In this document: piece by piece, positions 3,569 through 10,912 of the stretch
Position numbering within the stretch: the stretch's first letter is position 1
How the letters are laid out: the number at the start of each line of letters is the position of its first letter
Source: a bacterium
Lineage (GTDB): Bacteria > UBP15 > UBA6099 > DSWB01
Length of the DNA: 10,912 bases
Assembly: GCA_020061125.1 (NCBI GenBank)
Contig: JAGUYV010000486.1
Coordinates: 1-10,912 of the forward strand
Direction: 5' to 3'
Notes under the pieces: model-generated
What the model was told of the DNA's origin: nothing
Databases searched by the model: none
What the model saw: only the letters and a program-made list of their open reading frames with translations
Position numbers and translations under genes: made by a program

Positions 3569-4171
3569 TCATGTTCCCGCCCGGATTTGCTGCTCGAACA
3601 TTGTCCACGCGATCGTTGCATACGAATCCAGATCAAAATCGCCGCCGGAAAGCCGCCAAAGAATGGCCGAAGGCTGGATCAGGCCCAGAAACATAACGGA
3701 AAGGGCATCGGGATCCGCATCTGCCCGGATCTGGCCCTGCTCCTGGCCCAGTCTCAATGTCCCGGCCACTTCCGCGAGGTACGATGAGATGATTGCATAC
3801 ACCTTGCCCGTGCGTTCCGGTCTGGTTTCGTACATATCCTCGGCAAACACGATTCGCGTGATACCGCGGTTTTCCTTAATCAATGCGATGTGCAGCAACA
3901 GCAGCCGTTCCAGGCGCCGAACCGGATTTCCGGCTTCACGGCTCGCGATAGCCACATTTTCAAGCAACCTCGCGTGGATAAGATCCAAAACCGCATCCAC
4001 AATGTCTTCCTTGCTCTGGAAATGCCGGTAAATGGCCGATGGAACCAGCCCGATGCGCCCGGCAATGGACGCCACACTCAATCCGCGCAATCCCTGGTCC
4101 GTCATGATTTCCAGTGCGGTTTGTGCAATCTGTTCCCGTCTTAACGCCGTTTGCATTTTTGATGTGTTCAT
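3569..4171 (-). CDS. TetR/AcrR family transcriptional regulator
   Basis: A 200-residue one-component repressor of the TetR family. The N-terminal DNA-binding domain is plain: a helix at residues 9-24 (ALRREQIAQTALEIMT), then the helix-turn-helix at about 31-52 (LSVASIAGRIGLVPSAIYRHF) followed by QSKEDIV. Residues from about 65 on form the variable ligand-binding and dimerisation domain; the ligand cannot be inferred. I choose the ATG at 4171 because GGAG lies 5 bases ahead. The in-frame ATG at 4195 would place its start codon inside the operator-like dyad and has no ribosome site. Length is normal for the family. It is the first gene of a likely two-gene unit with the DUF6448 gene, and the dyad at 4182-4201 suggests autoregulation. 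Confidence 0.9.
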   Translation of the reverse strand: MNTSKMQTALRREQIAQTALEIMTDQGLRGLSVASIAGRIGLVPSAIYRHFQSKEDIVDAVLDLIHARLLENVAIASREAGNPVRRLERLLLLHIALIKENRGITRIVFAEDMYETRPERTGKVYAIISSYLAEVAGTLRLGQEQGQIRADADPDALSVMFLGLIQPSAILWRLSGGDFDLDSYATIAWTMFEQQIRAGT

Positions 4172-4181
4172 GGCCGCTCCA

Positions 4182-4201
4182 ATGTGAACGCTCATTCACA
4201 T
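4182..4201. promoter_or_regulatory. Candidate TetR operator (inverted repeat) upstream of its own gene
   Basis: Perfect 7-base arms ATGTGAA and TTCACAT are separated by CGCTCA, and one more symmetric pair inside the spacer gives 16 matching positions in 20. The core reads TGAACG-CT-CATTCA, the length and shape typical of operators bound by TetR-family dimers. It ends 10 bases before the chosen start codon of the TetR gene, so a bound dimer would block transcription of the TetR-DUF6448 unit. Confidence 0.55.
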
Positions 4202-4361: not shown

Positions 4362-5252
4362 TCAATTGATGTATTCCGGAAGAATGCTCTCCAGTCGCAC
4401 GAAATCCATTTGAAAGACCTCGGCTGCGGGAGCGGGATCTCCGGTGTTGTCTTCGCGGATCATGGTCAACTGGTCCGTGGTCAGAGGCGGATCGGGCAGG
4501 AGTTTTTCCATGGCGCGCGCCATGGGTTTGGCCAGGGCTTCGGGCATGTGCAGTTTGGCGCGCCTGCGGCCCAGGTGCTCGCCGATCACATCAAGCAACT
4601 GCGGCATGGTGTACCTTGCCGGACCCGCAAGCTCGAATATGCGGTTGGCCGCATCCGGGTTGTCCACGGCCGCTGCGAAGCAGCGCGCCACATCCCCGGC
4701 GTACACGGGCTGGAGTTTGGCCTTGCCCGCGCCAATTACGGGCACGAAAAGCGGGTTTTTGAAGAAATCCGCGAGCATGGAAATGAATTCGTCGCCGGGA
4801 CCGAAAATCACCGACGGGCGGAAGATCACAAACGGGATGCCCGCGGCGCGCACGGCTTCCTCGCCTTTCCACTTGGTCTGGTGATACCTGCTGCGCGCGT
4901 GCGGCCTGGTGCCGAGCGCGCTCATGTGCACAAAGCGTTCCATGCCGCAAGCCGCGGCCGCGCGCACCGCGTTCACCGTGGCCTGGTGGTGCATTTGCTC
5001 GAAACCCGCGCCCGGCTTCTCTCGGATGATTCCCACGAGATGCACCAGCACATCGCGCCCTGAAGCCGCTGATTCTATGGATGCAGGGTCCAACACATCG
5101 CCCTGGGCCAGTGCGATACCGCTTCTCTCAAGAGCCGCGGCCTTTTTCGGGTTGCGCACCAGCGCCGTAACCTCATGCCCGGCCTTGAGAAGTTCATCCA
5201 CAACATAGCCGCCCACGAAACCCGTTGCGCCCGTTATCAGCACTTTCTTCAT
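4362..5252 (-). CDS. NAD(P)-dependent epimerase/atypical SDR (NDUFA9-like)
   Basis: A 296-residue Rossmann-fold protein of the atypical short-chain dehydrogenase class, close in style to NDUFA9/NmrA-like and UDP-sugar-epimerase-like proteins. The dinucleotide motif GATGFVGG (G8, G11, G14) follows the first strand KKVLIT. GDVLD near residue 51 and HLVGI near 71 continue the fold. Ser111, Tyr123 and Lys127 (YHQTK) form the usual SDR catalytic set, so it may be an active oxidoreductase. FRPSVIFGPGDEF and the QPVYAGDVARC block are typical of the family's substrate half. The substrate is unknown. I choose the ATG at 5252, which begins MKKVLITG; GGGGAG lies 8 bases upstream, and earlier ATGs only add residues ahead of the first strand. 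The stop codon lies within a 12-base palindrome, CATCAATTGATG (4360-4371), and no T run follows it. It seems to be monocistronic. Confidence 0.88.
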   Translation of the reverse strand: MKKVLITGATGFVGGYVVDELLKAGHEVTALVRNPKKAAALERSGIALAQGDVLDPASIESAASGRDVLVHLVGIIREKPGAGFEQMHHQATVNAVRAAAACGMERFVHMSALGTRPHARSRYHQTKWKGEEAVRAAGIPFVIFRPSVIFGPGDEFISMLADFFKNPLFVPVIGAGKAKLQPVYAGDVARCFAAAVDNPDAANRIFELAGPARYTMPQLLDVIGEHLGRRRAKLHMPEALAKPMARAMEKLLPDPPLTTDQLTMIREDNTGDPAPAAEVFQMDFVRLESILPEYIN

Positions 5253-5413
5253 ATCCACCACTCTCCCCATTAACACATCTAACCACAAAACAACGGCCGC
5301 GCGCAACCTGTTCCCCGAACGCGGCTGCGGCGGGGAGGGGAAGCCTGGCGAAAAACGGGATCACAAATTTTCACGAATCCGAATAAGTCTGCATAAATGG
5401 TTTTGTTCTGCAC

Positions 5414-5854: not shown

Positions 5855-6346
5855 ATGAAGCTCTCGACGCGGGCAATCTATTCTCTTCGGCTCATGATCT
5901 ACCTTGCCGACCATGCCGGCCGCAACACCCCCATCAGCCTCAAGGAAATTTCCCAGGAACAAAACCTGCCGTTCCGGTATCTGGAGCAGCTTGTGGTGGC
6001 GCTCAAGACCGCAGGACTGGTCAAGAGCGTGCAGGGCAAGCAGGGTGGTTACATCCTGGGCCGAGATGCGCAGGATATCAAGGCCCTGGATGTGGTGGAA
6101 GCCAGCATGGGGCATGTAGAACTGCTCAAGTGCCTGGAGCCGGACGCGCCGTGTTCGTTCCGCGATGTCTGCACTTCGCGGCGCATGTGGGGCATGATTC
6201 AAACCCGGATCACCGACATTCTGGCGGAATACAGTCTTAAAGATCTATCTGAATCGGACATGAAGGCGCGCCTGGAGCAGACCCTGCTCGGAGGGGTCGA
6301 GACCGGGGCCGCCATGATTTGCGATTGCAGAAGCGAATCTTCCTGA
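5855..6346 (+). CDS. Rrf2-family (IscR-like) transcriptional regulator, putative Fe-S sensor
   Basis: A 163-residue regulator of the Rrf2 family. The N-terminal MKLSTRAIYSLRLMIYLA is the family hallmark. The winged helix-turn-helix follows: ISLKEISQEQNLPFRYLEQLVVALKTAGLVKS at residues 27-58, then the wing VQGKQGGYILGR. Three cysteines at 93, 100 and 106 (C-x6-C-x5-C) lie where IscR and related sensors hold an Fe-S cluster, so cluster- or redox-dependent binding is likely. A further Cys-Asp-Cys at 156-158 near the C terminus is unusual. The start is fixed by family homology; GAGGA ends only 2 bases before the ATG, an unusually short spacing that may mean weak translation. It is the first gene of the operon, 14 bases ahead of tmcD. 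Desulfovibrio also has Rrf-type regulators (Rrf1/Rrf2) linked to the hmc operon, so it probably regulates the downstream complex and itself. Confidence 0.92.
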   Translation: MKLSTRAIYSLRLMIYLADHAGRNTPISLKEISQEQNLPFRYLEQLVVALKTAGLVKSVQGKQGGYILGRDAQDIKALDVVEASMGHVELLKCLEPDAPCSFRDVCTSRRMWGMIQTRITDILAEYSLKDLSESDMKARLEQTLLGGVETGAAMICDCRSESS

Positions 6347-6360
6347 CGAGGAGCACTGTG

Positions 6361-7626
6361 ATGCAGGACAAAAAGAACTGGAACTGGGATGCCGGCAAGG
6401 AGATGCTCGCCGATGTGGCCGCCATGCGCAAGGCGTATGCGGATGTTCACGAGTTTTCGGTGAGCGCGGACGGCACAAAAATCGCGGCCCCGGTCAAACT
6501 CGAAGACGACACCTTCACGGCTGTGTGCAACGGCCAGGCGTGGGAAACCAGTTTCGAGAAGCTGTGGTACGCCCGGTTCAGCCCGGACAACCGGCTCACG
6601 GCCCTGGTCATGGAAGACGACGCCTGGACCCTGGCCGCGGACGGGCAGGCGTGGGAGGAAAAATTCTCCTATGCGTGGAACCCGAAATTCAGCGCGGACG
6701 GCGCGCACGCGGGCATGCAGGTCAAGCAGGATTTCGACTACACCCTGGCTGTAGACGGGCAGGCGTGGGAAACCACCTTCCTGGCGACACGAGATTTTGC
6801 GATCAGCCCCGACGGCGCTCTGGGCGTTGCGCTTGTGCAGGTCGAGAATGTGCCCGAAGCCGATATCTGGAAGTTCAACAGCGGCACCTGGACCGTGGCC
6901 GTAAACGGAGCGGCCTGGGACCGGCTGTTTATGAATGTGTGGGGCATCGCCTTCAGCCCGGACTGCAAGCGCGTGGCCACACAGGTGCGCCTCGACAGCA
7001 CGACTTACACCTTGGCCGTGGACGGAAAGCCCTGGGACCAGACCTTCACCAGCGTGTGGGAGCCGAAGTTCCGGCCGGACAACGGCGCGCTGCTCGCGCC
7101 CGCGCGCAACGCCAGCGGCTGGACACTGGTGGAGAACGGCAACCCCATCTGGGACGGCGGTTTCTCGCAGTTGTGGTACATCACCTTCAGTTGCGACGCA
7201 AAGCGCATCGGCGCGGTCGTGGCTACGGCGCTCGGAAAATGGACCATCGCCGTGGACGGCAAGCCGTGGAAAAACTCCTGGCGCGACCTGGTCGTCGGCC
7301 CGGTGTTCTCGCAGGACACATCCAAAACCGCGGCCGTGGTCAAGCACGAAAACCGGTGGTCCATCGCCGTGGACGGCGAGCAGTGGCCCGACACCTATGA
7401 CATGGCCTGGGACCCGGCCATCAGCCCGGACAACCGCCTGGTCATGGCCAAGGTGGAAAAGGGCGGCAAGTATTTCATCGGCGTGAACGGCAAGTTGTTC
7501 AGCCAGGCGTTCGACGCGCTGTGGGAGCCTGCGTTCAGCCCGGACGGAAGCAAAGTCCTGATCCGGTGCGTCGAGGGCGGCAAATACTACCGGTGGGTTG
7601 CGCCGGTCAGTCAAATCGCGGGATGA
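6361..7626 (+). CDS. tmcD: TmcD-like tryptophan-rich repeat protein
   Basis: A 421-residue soluble protein without signal peptide or membrane segments, matching TmcD, the tryptophan-rich cytoplasmic subunit of the Tmc complex of sulfate reducers. I assign it from its composition (25 Trp by my count), size and position next to tmcC and tmcB. The protein consists almost entirely of nine repeats of about 38-40 residues. Each has an S-x-D turn (SPDG/SPDN; first at 35-38, last at 393-396) followed by a strand and then [D/N]-G-x-x-W-x-x-x-F (at 57, 94, 132, 182, 221, 259, 299, 338 and 376). The fourth unit carries an insert of about 12 residues. The spacing suggests a beta-propeller. The start at 6361 has GAGGAG 7 bases upstream; an in-frame ATG at 6319 would overlap the Rrf2 gene. 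No cofactor motif is visible, so it is probably a scaffold or docking subunit. Confidence 0.82.
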   Translation: MQDKKNWNWDAGKEMLADVAAMRKAYADVHEFSVSADGTKIAAPVKLEDDTFTAVCNGQAWETSFEKLWYARFSPDNRLTALVMEDDAWTLAADGQAWEEKFSYAWNPKFSADGAHAGMQVKQDFDYTLAVDGQAWETTFLATRDFAISPDGALGVALVQVENVPEADIWKFNSGTWTVAVNGAAWDRLFMNVWGIAFSPDCKRVATQVRLDSTTYTLAVDGKPWDQTFTSVWEPKFRPDNGALLAPARNASGWTLVENGNPIWDGGFSQLWYITFSCDAKRIGAVVATALGKWTIAVDGKPWKNSWRDLVVGPVFSQDTSKTAAVVKHENRWSIAVDGEQWPDTYDMAWDPAISPDNRLVMAKVEKGGKYFIGVNGKLFSQAFDALWEPAFSPDGSKVLIRCVEGGKYYRWVAPVSQIAG

Positions 7627-7640
7627 CGAGGGGTTACACC

Positions 7641-8276
7641 ATGTACGAATTCGTGAGCGGACCGTTGTTCTGGATCTCCCTGGCCATCTGTGTGGCGGGC
7701 AGCATTTATAAGCTGGTCACCGTCATCAAGCTGGCCAGGAAAGACAAGGTGGTTCTGCCGTACATGCGGTTGAGCTACAGCATGAAATCCATCGGGCGCT
7801 GGATCACGCCGTTCGGCACGCGCAGCATGCGTCTGACGCCCATCTTCACAGCCGTGGCGTTCAGTTTCCATATCTGCCTGCTGTTCACGCCGCTGCTGCT
7901 GCTGGCGCACCACGAGCTGCTGGGCATCCGCCTCATCCACCTGCCCGACCCCGTGGCGCATGTCATGACCGCCATCGTGATTATTGGCGGCCTGTTCTTC
8001 CTGCAGCGCCGCCTGCTGGTGCCGTATGTCAACAATGTCACCTATTTTTCCGACATCCTCCTGCTGCTCCTGGTCATGGCCCCGTTCGTGACCGGGTTCC
8101 TGGCCTATTACCAGTGGTTCGATTACCGCACGGTCATCACCCTGCACATGATATTCGGGTGCGTCATGCTCGTGATCATCCCCTTCACGCGCATCGTGCA
8201 CATGTTGTTTTTTGCGCTGACCCGGGCGTACATGGCCTGTGAGTTCGGATATGTCCGCAACTCCCAGGACTGGTGA
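7641..8276 (+). CDS. tmcC: TmcC-like membrane cytochrome b subunit (NarI/DsrM/HmcE type)
   Basis: A 211-residue integral membrane protein with five predicted helices at about residues 5-31, 65-89, 105-127, 138-157 and 164-190. It fits the NarI-like cytochrome b subunits of the Tmc, Hmc and Dsr complexes, which carry electrons or quinol redox chemistry through the membrane to the cytoplasmic HdrD-like partner. Candidate haem b ligands are His77 and His90/91 on helix 2 and His169 and His187 on helix 5. The 18-residue spacing of the last pair equals that of the two ligands on the last helix of E. coli NarI. The start at 7641 has GAGGGG 7 bases upstream. An ATG at 7623 overlapping the tmcD stop would add six residues but has no better ribosome site. 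HmcE is the closest alternative name; the neighbouring tmcD favours TmcC. Confidence 0.83.
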   Translation: MYEFVSGPLFWISLAICVAGSIYKLVTVIKLARKDKVVLPYMRLSYSMKSIGRWITPFGTRSMRLTPIFTAVAFSFHICLLFTPLLLLAHHELLGIRLIHLPDPVAHVMTAIVIIGGLFFLQRRLLVPYVNNVTYFSDILLLLLVMAPFVTGFLAYYQWFDYRTVITLHMIFGCVMLVIIPFTRIVHMLFFALTRAYMACEFGYVRNSQDW

Positions 8277-8303
8277 CGCACATCCTTGAAAGGTGGGTTT
8301 TCC

Positions 8304-9641
8304 ATGGGGTTCAAGCCCAGAGAAGAAGTCGCTGATCAGGGCATTGACAAGCGGCTCGAAGAACTAAGCCTCGAACAGATCGAGCAGACCATCAACAAGG
8401 TGCTGGCCGCGGAGATGAACGCGCGCATGACGGCCTACCTCCAGACCTGCGTGCACTGCGGCCTGTGCGCCAACGCGTGCCACTACTGCCTGTCCCACAA
8501 CATGGACCCGAAATACGCGCCCGTGGGCAAGGTCAAGGACACGGTCTGGGAGATGGTCAAGAAGAAGGGCAAAGTCAGCAAGGAGTTCATGCGCACCGCG
8601 GCGCGCATCGCCTACACCGAGTGCAACACCTGCCGCCGCTGCAGCATGTACTGCCCCTTCGGAATTGACATCGCGTACTTCATCATCACCACGCGCCGCA
8701 TCTGCCACCTGCTTGGCATCGTGCCCCAGTACGAGCAGGACACGGTCAACAGCCACTCCGCCACCTTCAATCAGATGTGGGTGCAGCAGGACGAGTGGAT
8801 TGACACCCTGCAATGGCAGGAAGAGGACGCCCAGGGCAAGATCCCGCTGGCCCGCATCCCTCTGGAAAAAGAGGGCGCGGACATCATGTACTCGGTCATC
8901 GCGCCCGAACCCAAGATTCTGGCGCAGCTTCTGGCCAACGCGTCCATCATCATGACCGCCGCGGGCATGAGCTGGACCATGCCCGCCACAGACGGCTGGG
9001 ACAACAGCAACATGGCCATGTTCTCGGGCGACTTCGAGACCAGCGCACGCCTCGAACGCCTGCACCACGAGACCGCCATCAGGCTCAAGGTCAAGCGCAT
9101 CGTCATGGGCGAGTGCGGCCACGCATACCGCGGCGCCGTGTACGACGGGCCCAAGTCCAACTCCTGGATGTTCCCTCCCATCCCGGTCGTCCACGCCATT
9201 GATTTCTACCACGAGATCATCACACAGGGCAAAATCAAGATCGCCAAGAAATTCGACAAGCCCATCACCGTGCAGGACCCGTGCAATGTCATCCGCAACG
9301 CGGGCCTGGGCATGAAACTGCGCGAGATCATGAAGGCCACATGCAGCGACTTCCGCGATGTGGAGCCGCGCCTGGGGCACAACTACTGCTGCGCGGCCGG
9401 CGGCGGCGTGATCAACTGCGGCCCCCCGTGGAAAAAGGATCGCGTCAAGGGCAACAAGATTAAGGCCGAACAGCTCCGCGCCACGGGCGCCGAATATGTG
9501 GTCACCCCCTGCCACAACTGCCACAGCGGCATCGAAGACATTCTCAAGGAATTCAATGTCCACATGCATGTGATTTTCTTCAGCGAACTGCTTGTGGACC
9601 ACTGCATGGAAATTCCCGAACATCTCAAGGCAAAGGATTAG
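8304..9641 (+). CDS. tmcB: TmcB-like iron-sulfur protein (HdrD/DsrK/HmcF family)
   Basis: A 445-residue cytoplasmic iron-sulfur protein related to the heterodisulfide reductase subunit HdrD. Two [4Fe-4S] ferredoxin motifs are complete: C49-x2-C52-x2-C55-x3-C59 and C107-x2-C110-x2-C113-x3-CP. The C-terminal cysteine-rich (CCG) domain is complete: C327, C362-C363, C403 and C406, which in this family can hold a catalytic or special [4Fe-4S] centre. The first CCG repeat is reduced to GECGHAYRG around C271, a form shared with DsrK-type proteins. No signal peptide is present. The start at 8304 has AAAGGTGG 7 bases upstream. It begins 27 bases after tmcC and ends 4 bases before the cytochrome gene. 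Electrons would pass between this protein and the haems of TmcC; the cytoplasmic redox partner (a thiol/disulfide such as DsrC, by analogy with DsrK) is inference. Confidence 0.87.
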   Translation: MGFKPREEVADQGIDKRLEELSLEQIEQTINKVLAAEMNARMTAYLQTCVHCGLCANACHYCLSHNMDPKYAPVGKVKDTVWEMVKKKGKVSKEFMRTAARIAYTECNTCRRCSMYCPFGIDIAYFIITTRRICHLLGIVPQYEQDTVNSHSATFNQMWVQQDEWIDTLQWQEEDAQGKIPLARIPLEKEGADIMYSVIAPEPKILAQLLANASIIMTAAGMSWTMPATDGWDNSNMAMFSGDFETSARLERLHHETAIRLKVKRIVMGECGHAYRGAVYDGPKSNSWMFPPIPVVHAIDFYHEIITQGKIKIAKKFDKPITVQDPCNVIRNAGLGMKLREIMKATCSDFRDVEPRLGHNYCCAAGGGVINCGPPWKKDRVKGNKIKAEQLRATGAEYVVTPCHNCHSGIEDILKEFNVHMHVIFFSELLVDHCMEIPEHLKAKD

Positions 9642-9645
9642 GAAC

Positions 9646-10912
9646 ATGCAGAACAAATCAGTGAACTGGACAGGAGTCCTGCTGCTGCTCGGGGTGTTCG
9701 CGGCCCTGGCGGGCGGATGGCTGTACAAGACCTCGCAGGGGCACGCGTCCGAACACGGCCGCCGCACCTTCGCCATCGAGTTGCCCGCGGACAAGTTCGC
9801 CAAACTCGAGCGCCCCGCCGTGCTCTTCGATCACGAAAAGCACACGGAAGCCCTCAAGGACGCGCCCTGCACCGAGTGCCACCGGCAGGACAAGGACTCG
9901 GGCGCGCTGGTGTTCGGCGTCATTGACCCGGAAAAGCACACCACGCGCAAGGCCATCACCGATGCGTATCACGACAACTGCATCGGCTGCCACAAGGAGC
10001 GCGGCGCAGGCCCCATGGCCTGCGGCGAATGCCATGTGCGCAACGCGCCCGCAAGCGCCCCGTGGCACTCCATGGAGCTGTCCCTCGAACAGCACCAGAA
10101 GCATGTGGCCGCCATGGAGGACAAGTGCGAGGCCTGCCACCACGATTACGACGAGCAGGCCAAGAAGCTCGTGTACAAGCAGGGCGCGGAAACCTCGTGC
10201 CGCGACTGCCACCGCGAGGCGGCCCAGGACAACCGCCCCTCCATGCGCATGGCCGCGCACACGCAGTGCATCACCTGCCACATGGACCGCGAGAAACAGA
10301 ATGCGGCCACCGGCCCGGTGCAGTGCCAGGGCTGTCACGACGAGGCTTTGAAACTGCCCGCGCTCATGGACATGAGCCGCGTCAAGCGCCTGGACCGCAA
10401 CCAGGAGGACATGCCGCTCATTACGGTTAAAGACAATAAAATGAAACCCGTTCCATTCGATCACAAAAACCACGAAACCGTGGCGCGCAACTGCCGCACC
10501 TGCCACCACGAATCCCTCAAGGCTTGCAGCGAGTGCCACACCGTGCAGGGCAAGAAGGAAGGCGGCTATGTGAGGCTGTCCGAAGCGTTCCACCGCGCCA
10601 CCTCGGAACGAAGCTGCGTGGGCTGTCACGAGCAGGTCAAGAAGCAGACCGCGTGCCGCGTATGCCACGAGAGCATGGCCTCCGGCCCCGTGGAGTCGTC
10701 CTGCGACACCTGCCACTCGGGCGAAGAGGGCGCGCCCGCGGCCGCGCGCGCGGACCGCGATCCCAACGAGGTCATTGACTGGGCGCTCATGTATGTTCAG
10801 GATTTCCCCGAGGATATCGAAGTCAAAACCATCGCGGACAAATACGAAGCCGTGCCGTTCCCGCACCTCGAGATCATCAAGAGCATGAACAAGCTGCTTG
10901 GCGGCAACCGCC
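9646..10912 (+). CDS. hmcA: HmcA-like high-molecular-weight multihaem cytochrome c (3' end outside window)
   Basis: The first 422 residues are present and the frame is open at the window end. AAGGA lies 8 bases before the ATG. An N-terminal hydrophobic stretch (residues 9-27) is a signal peptide or anchor, with possible cleavage after GHA34, so the protein is periplasmic. There are twelve CxxCH haem sites, first Cys at 75, 112, 126, 161, 185, 208, 227, 283, 294, 324, 337 and 353. Class III (cytochrome c3-type) domains start with paired His: FDHEKH at 61-66, EQHQKH at 149-153, FDHKNH at 271-276 and PFPH at 404-407. The layout of 3 + 4 + 4 + 1 haems and then a new domain is that of the 16-haem HmcA of Desulfovibrio; several blocks match what I recall of that protein (NCIGCH, CxTCHH, SCVGCH). 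Four more haems are expected beyond the window. It would carry electrons from periplasmic hydrogenases and cytochrome c3 to the membrane subunit. In classical Tmc this place is taken by the tetrahaem TmcA. Confidence 0.88.
   Translation, partial: MQNKSVNWTGVLLLLGVFAALAGGWLYKTSQGHASEHGRRTFAIELPADKFAKLERPAVLFDHEKHTEALKDAPCTECHRQDKDSGALVFGVIDPEKHTTRKAITDAYHDNCIGCHKERGAGPMACGECHVRNAPASAPWHSMELSLEQHQKHVAAMEDKCEACHHDYDEQAKKLVYKQGAETSCRDCHREAAQDNRPSMRMAAHTQCITCHMDREKQNAATGPVQCQGCHDEALKLPALMDMSRVKRLDRNQEDMPLITVKDNKMKPVPFDHKNHETVARNCRTCHHESLKACSECHTVQGKKEGGYVRLSEAFHRATSERSCVGCHEQVKKQTACRVCHESMASGPVESSCDTCHSGEEGAPAAARADRDPNEVIDWALMYVQDFPEDIEVKTIADKYEAVPFPHLEIIKSMNKLLGGNR

Follow-up and report, generated by a model that had tools for sequence, protein, structure and literature searches.

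A predicted composite operon joining a Tmc-type core to an Hmc-type module in an uncultured, sulfate-reducer-like bacterium

Tmc, Hmc and the genes of the window

The redox complexes Tmc (TmcABCD, from Desulfovibrio) and Hmc (HmcABCDEF, from the Desulfovibrionaceae) have unsettled roles and directions in sulfate respiration. Passages of PMC4215793 that cite Pereira 2011 give the suggestion that Tmc is a simplified Hmc; the same paper reports that Tmc mutants of D. alaskensis are impaired in H2 use, and transfer from Tmc to DsrC has been proposed. Here we analyze a 10,912-base stretch of DNA (the window) that is the entire contig JAGUYV010000486.1 (C167) of a 4.1 Mb genome assembly with 513 contigs and 79% completeness. 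It carries genes for TmcD, TmcC and TmcB followed by part of a gene for an HmcA-type cytochrome. The locus shares with Tmc the TmcD-TmcC-TmcB genes, their order, the CCG/haem b chemistry and a nearby Rrf2-like gene. However, where Tmc would have its tetrahaem type II cytochrome c3 (TmcA), this operon appears to have a 16-haem HmcA together with HmcB, HmcC and an HmcD-like peptide, that is, an added quinone-linked module. With Hmc it shares the internal A-B-C-(D) order, E/F-type partners, nearby Rrf2/receiver regulators and topology, but its E/F subunits are of the Tmc type and lie ahead of A-B-C, and TmcD is added.

The four genes lie on the forward strand with gaps of 14, 27 and 4 bases, as the first-pass annotation of this DNA had described. 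The product of tmcD (6361..7626) is a tryptophan-rich, propeller-like protein that scores 507.5 bits against the NCBIfam model NF045725 (cut-off 440), matches PD40 in Pfam and weakly matches WD40-type propellers in the PDB; no signal peptide was seen on inspection by eye, and it is presumably cytoplasmic. Next, tmcC (7641..8276), a homologue of hmcE, encodes a membrane dihaem cytochrome b with 251.4 bits against NF045723 (cut-off 240) and 162.6 bits against the HmcE model. Histidines 77, 90, 169 and 187 of TmcC are shared by all 45 Tmc-side and all 13 HmcE rows and would serve two haems b. The hmcF/dsrK homologue tmcB (8304..9641) encodes two ferredoxin-type 4Fe-4S motifs and a CCG catalytic domain, scoring 685.3 bits against NF045724 and 374.6 bits against the HmcF model. 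Its eight ferredoxin cysteines and the CCG residues Cys271, 327, 362, 363, 403 and 406 are invariant across 38 Tmc-side and 13 HmcF rows.

Because the window is the whole of its contig, hmcA (9646..10912) is cut off by the assembly. This 5' part encodes a periplasmic multihaem cytochrome c with an N-terminal membrane anchor or signal and 12 CxxCH sites, in line with the earlier estimate of at least 12. The cut protein scores 369.7 bits against NF045713 (cut-off 400), spanning profile positions 7-458 of 541, and its best PDB matches are the 16-haem HmcA structures 1gws (E-value 4.6e-73), 1h29 and 2e84 (E-value 5.9e-69). The TmcA model also matches its N-terminal domains, with 121 bits summed. 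A truncated or frameshifted duplication of TmcA was ruled out, since a single open frame matches HmcA up to the contig end.

We searched the same genome with the HmcB sequence of a sister genome from the host's taxonomic order (G001; loci L025 and L030) and obtained a single strong place, 65% identical, at C339:184-1242. Ahead of it, bases 3-155 of contig C339 (L081:3-155) encode an hmcA 3' end of 51 residues plus stop, with two CxxCH. In the sister HmcA, this tail corresponds to residues 464-502 (56% identity over 39) and the window part to residues 1-415 (42.6% identity over 423 columns). About 40 residues fall in the assembly gap, and because the sister protein has two CxxCH there (433 and 449), the count becomes 12+2+2 = 16; HmcA is thus probably of the 16-haem type, with 12 of its sites in the window. 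The sister HmcA itself has 15 CxxCH and scores 432 bits, above the cut-off of 400.

A Tmc core with no Hmc subunit but HmcA is not what the locus shows, for C339 goes on with hmcB, hmcC and an hmcD-like gene. HmcB is a ferredoxin-type protein with a twin-arginine motif (459.5 bits, cut-off 420), and HmcC, encoded after it, belongs to the NrfD family (585.3 bits, cut-off 550). An open reading frame (ORF) for a 45-residue hydrophobic peptide, whose best model is HmcD, begins 12 bases after hmcC, and a gene for a receiver-domain protein (RR) of the DVU0259 type follows (146.8 bits, cut-off 160). At the other end, a gene for an Rrf2-family regulator (rrf2, 5855..6346, forward strand; Pfam Rrf2 114 bits; TIGR00738 115 bits, cut-off 73) stops 14 bases short of tmcD; the sister has rrf2 in the equivalent position (59% identical), and the operon probably starts with it. 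The order and strand of the C339 features, from the HmcA tail to RR, are as expected, and in the sister genome rrf2-D-C-B-HmcA-HmcB-HmcC-HmcD-like-RR all lie on one contig. We infer an operon rrf2–tmcD–tmcC–tmcB–hmcA–hmcB–hmcC–hmcD–RR split over C167 and C339, joining the contigs because of synteny with L030 and because this is the only HmcB of such kind in the genome.

Gene order and phylogeny of related loci

Scanning a TmcD alignment against 84,980 species genomes yielded 46 loci. The order is D-C-B-A in all 20 loci with a four-haem TmcA directly after TmcB, including those of named Desulfovibrio, Desulfocurvus, Humidesulfovibrio and Desulfosarcina, with the TmcB frame broken or merged in a few of the 20 and TmcD of L065 taken from a tblastn match. 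D-C-B-A is therefore the standard order, which the gene letters do not follow. This removes the claim that the window shows the exact reverse of tmcABCD, and a reversed operon is ruled out.

Nor is the arrangement a one-off: 11 further loci carry the composite order D-C-B-HmcA-HmcB-HmcC, with 15-17 CxxCH in HmcA: two from Nitrospirota, three from Zixibacteria, one from Phycisphaerae (Planctomycetota), one from Desulfomonile, two labelled Deltaproteobacteria and two from metagenome-assembled genomes labelled 'bacterium', one of which is the sister. This identical order in other phyla rules out chance clustering. Among these hybrids, HmcD-like ORFs occur only in the window genome, the sister (L030), Zixibacteria and Phycisphaerae; they are also present in canonical operons. 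The composite order is partly matched by genes of Thermodesulfovibrio sp. N1 published as 'Hmc' (THER_1440-1444), which encode a CCG Fe-S protein (1444), a 16-haem HmcA (1443), HmcB (1441) and NrfD (1440) (PMC5165239). Judged by locus tags, their order agrees with that in L034 and L047, hybrids from Nitrospirota; the publication leaves TmcD and TmcC unmentioned. Such loci are called 'Hmc' or 'Tmc' according to the gene inspected, a warning for annotation.

Two other described or mapped arrangements come close. In Desulfococcus multivorans, hmc genes adjoin tmcA1, but as two complete sets (PMC5109826). An Nhc-type locus (G068; L113) has a nine-haem HmcA with HmcB and HmcC, adjoining genes for TmcC, TmcB and a tetrahaem cytochrome; it differs from the window in having two cytochromes (9 and 4 haems), in that TmcD was not found there and in a TmcB homologue nearer to HmcF. 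We found no paper naming a TmcBCD–HmcABC complex in a search that did not extend to the comparison of Pereira et al. 2011, which may mention the arrangement.

Several loci depart from these patterns. In L031 and L072, and also in L028 (G030), tmcD-C-B is immediately preceded by Qrc genes and the cytochrome is HmcA-like with 14 haems; past sensor kinase and GcvH-like genes, L031 also has HmcB and HmcC, 4.6 kb further on. L038, L041 and L046 have a Tmc operon with two tmcB copies in which no adjacent cytochrome gene was seen, and they form their own clade in the TmcB tree. The order is tmcB-tmcD-tmcC-tmcB in L038 and L041, and L046 is cut by a contig end. Additionally, three TmcB/HmcF homologues have an in-frame TGA exactly at the conserved CCG-domain cysteine of GECGH (Cys271 in the window TmcB), after which the frame continues: L034:6313-7620 and L047:11797-13110 in Nitrospirota, and L114:4507-5808 in a Desulfovibrio-type family. 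This codon probably specifies selenocysteine at the catalytic site.

One explanation for the locus is an ordinary Hmc with permuted gene order, in which TmcC and TmcB are divergent forms of HmcE and HmcF and TmcD is an accessory. Indeed, trees of HmcA, HmcB and HmcC place the window beside canonical Hmc, an HmcD-like peptide is present, the matching Thermodesulfovibrio genes are annotated as Hmc and the overall topology is the same. The membrane and cytoplasmic subunits argue otherwise. TmcC scores 251 versus 163 bits for HmcE, and TmcB 685 versus 375 for HmcF. Both trees that the first-pass annotation had named as informative, TmcC/HmcE and TmcB/HmcF, place the window on the Tmc branch (98/98 and 98/96), apart from HmcE and HmcF, which are each a separate clade (100/99 and 100/100); in the former tree the window joins the hybrids of the sister and of Zixibacteria (98/98). 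Additionally, TmcD (507 bits) directly precedes tmcC and is absent from the canonical hmc operons mapped, a set drawn from a single Desulfovibrio-type family (13 genomes). An ordinary Hmc is largely refuted for the E/F subunits and unlikely for the locus as a whole. The first-pass annotation had set its hybrid against a locus with hmcBCD homologues downstream and with TmcC and TmcB inside the HmcE/HmcF branch; the downstream genes are indeed there, but TmcC and TmcB are not on that branch.

In the HmcA, HmcB and HmcC trees, canonical sequences fall inside the hybrids, beside those of Zixibacteria (99/97, 100/97 and 100/100), and the window and sister lie just outside this group. Since TmcB and TmcC are on the Tmc branch and HmcA, HmcB and HmcC go with Hmc, we conclude from the sequences that the operon is a true composite of a Tmc core and a whole HmcABC(D) module, not just a Tmc with a long cytochrome. 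The earlier proposal of a Tmc-type membrane and cytoplasmic core joined to an HmcA-type cytochrome is thereby borne out by NCBIfam scores and trees alike. As a natural composite that is widespread and contains both halves, it offers a concrete test object for the idea of Tmc as a simplified Hmc.

In approximately unbiased (AU) tests, a single clade of all hybrids was rejected for HmcA (p 0.001), for HmcC (p 0.011, two long rows left out) and for TmcB (p 0.0035, thinned set with the 14-haem loci included). The midpoint of the TmcD tree splits hybrids from tetrahaem Tmc, in conflict with TmcB and TmcC; the AU test of this tree is uninformative, since the group also takes in 14-haem loci and short, untyped contigs.

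The composite looks like a link between the textbook Tmc and Hmc. It is possible, if somewhat doubtful, that it stands near the ancestral form of the entire family and that both textbook complexes derive from it. Tetrahaem Tmc would then have lost HmcB, HmcC and HmcD and kept just the N-terminal domain of HmcA; Desulfovibrio Hmc would have lost TmcD, while its E/F subunits moved and rapidly changed (or were replaced). Among HmcA sequences, it is usually the N-terminal domains of the hybrids that the TmcA profile matches best: domain 1 scores 55.5 bits for the window, against 30-46 for other hybrids and 10-37 for canonical HmcA. This fits the view that TmcA is a cut-down HmcA but is no proof of it. 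The TmcD tree does not support tetrahaem Tmc nested in hybrids, and we keep the ancestral scenario as no more than a candidate. The 'evolutionary intermediate' of the first-pass annotation may hold and has some support.

Proposed electron flow and host partners

The operon could also encode two independent complexes, a Tmc with no cytochrome of its own and a quinone module made of HmcABC(D), which happen to lie in one operon and exchange electrons via soluble cytochromes. TmcBCD and HmcABC are separable across loci: TmcA replaces HmcABC in most Desulfobacterota loci, and L031 has a Tmc core and 14-haem cytochrome at a distance from its HmcB and HmcC. However, 11 other loci, spread over several phyla, show D-C-B-HmcA-B-C without a break, and descriptions of Hmc count the HmcE/HmcF-type subunits and HmcABC as one complex. 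We consider two complexes improbable. Instead, the operon likely encodes one transmembrane redox complex with a Tmc-type inner core and an Hmc-type outer module.

Several points weigh against this single composite complex. The subunits may form two co-expressed complexes instead of one, and no sequence bridges C167 and C339. TmcB lies just below the NF045724 cut-off (685.3 of 735 bits), and the HmcD-like ORF is below its own (24 of 34 bits). Which way electrons run through Hmc is not settled in the literature (PMC6303296). Additionally, the one clear NiFe hydrogenase match in this 79%-complete genome looks by eye like the cytoplasmic Mvh type, so no periplasmic donor was found.

On this reading, periplasmic cytochromes, menaquinone and DsrC would be connected by one machine, and homology suggests each step of electron flow within it. 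The 16-haem HmcA would collect electrons from periplasmic cytochromes. From there, one branch would lead via HmcB to HmcC, where menaquinone would receive the electrons and protons would come from the cytoplasm, as in QrcD; another would cross the membrane through the haems b of TmcC to TmcB. The CCG cluster of TmcB might then reduce the DsrC (tri)sulfide, which would complete sulfite reduction. Flow could be reversed, depending on energetics, or quinol electrons could join those heading for DsrC. Expression may be set by Rrf2 and the receiver protein in response to redox or Fe-S state.

According to Duarte et al. (PMC6303296), HmcC is probably electrogenic, with uncertain direction. The HmcC encoded on C339 has six of the nine residues proposed for the QrcD proton path: D54, Y95, Y136, E143, E150 and H179 are the counterparts of QrcD D70, Y110, Y150, E157, E164 and H199 (PMC6303296), in a mapping that takes the offset from the QrcD of L028 to that of D. 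vulgaris to be constant.

The genome also encodes the expected cytoplasmic partners. DsrA (559 bits, cut-off 393), DsrK (704 bits, cut-off 400), AprA (902 bits, cut-off 642) and a DsrC with both C-terminal cysteines rule out a host without sulfur metabolism, and the gene content points to a sulfate-reducer-like uncultured bacterium. Within the host's taxonomic order, TmcD is found in two genomes, the host and the sister; the same two have DsrA, and five others have neither. A dsrD-like gene was not found between dsrB and a dsrN-like gene on contig C313, which decides nothing on the direction of Dsr.

Neighboring genes and other clusters in the genome

Upstream of rrf2, the minus strand of the window carries genes identified by eye for a CocE/X-Pro peptidase-type hydrolase (535-2685), a TetR-type regulator (3569-4195) and an NAD-dependent epimerase-like protein (4362-5306); no link between these three and the operon was seen.

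Two further clusters in the same genome have related components. On C290 (L029:5678-10633), DsrK/HmcF-like, HmcE-like, HmcB-like and HmcC-like genes accompany a cytochrome with 6 CxxCH. The genes of this complex are all far under every cut-off, and the cluster is possibly an undescribed relative of Hmc/Dsr. On C325 (L082:5085-9600), GcvH-like, HmcB-like and HmcC-like genes are found with one for a 609-residue protein with 28 CxxCH and a nearby sensor kinase, an arrangement that resembles the cluster downstream in L031.

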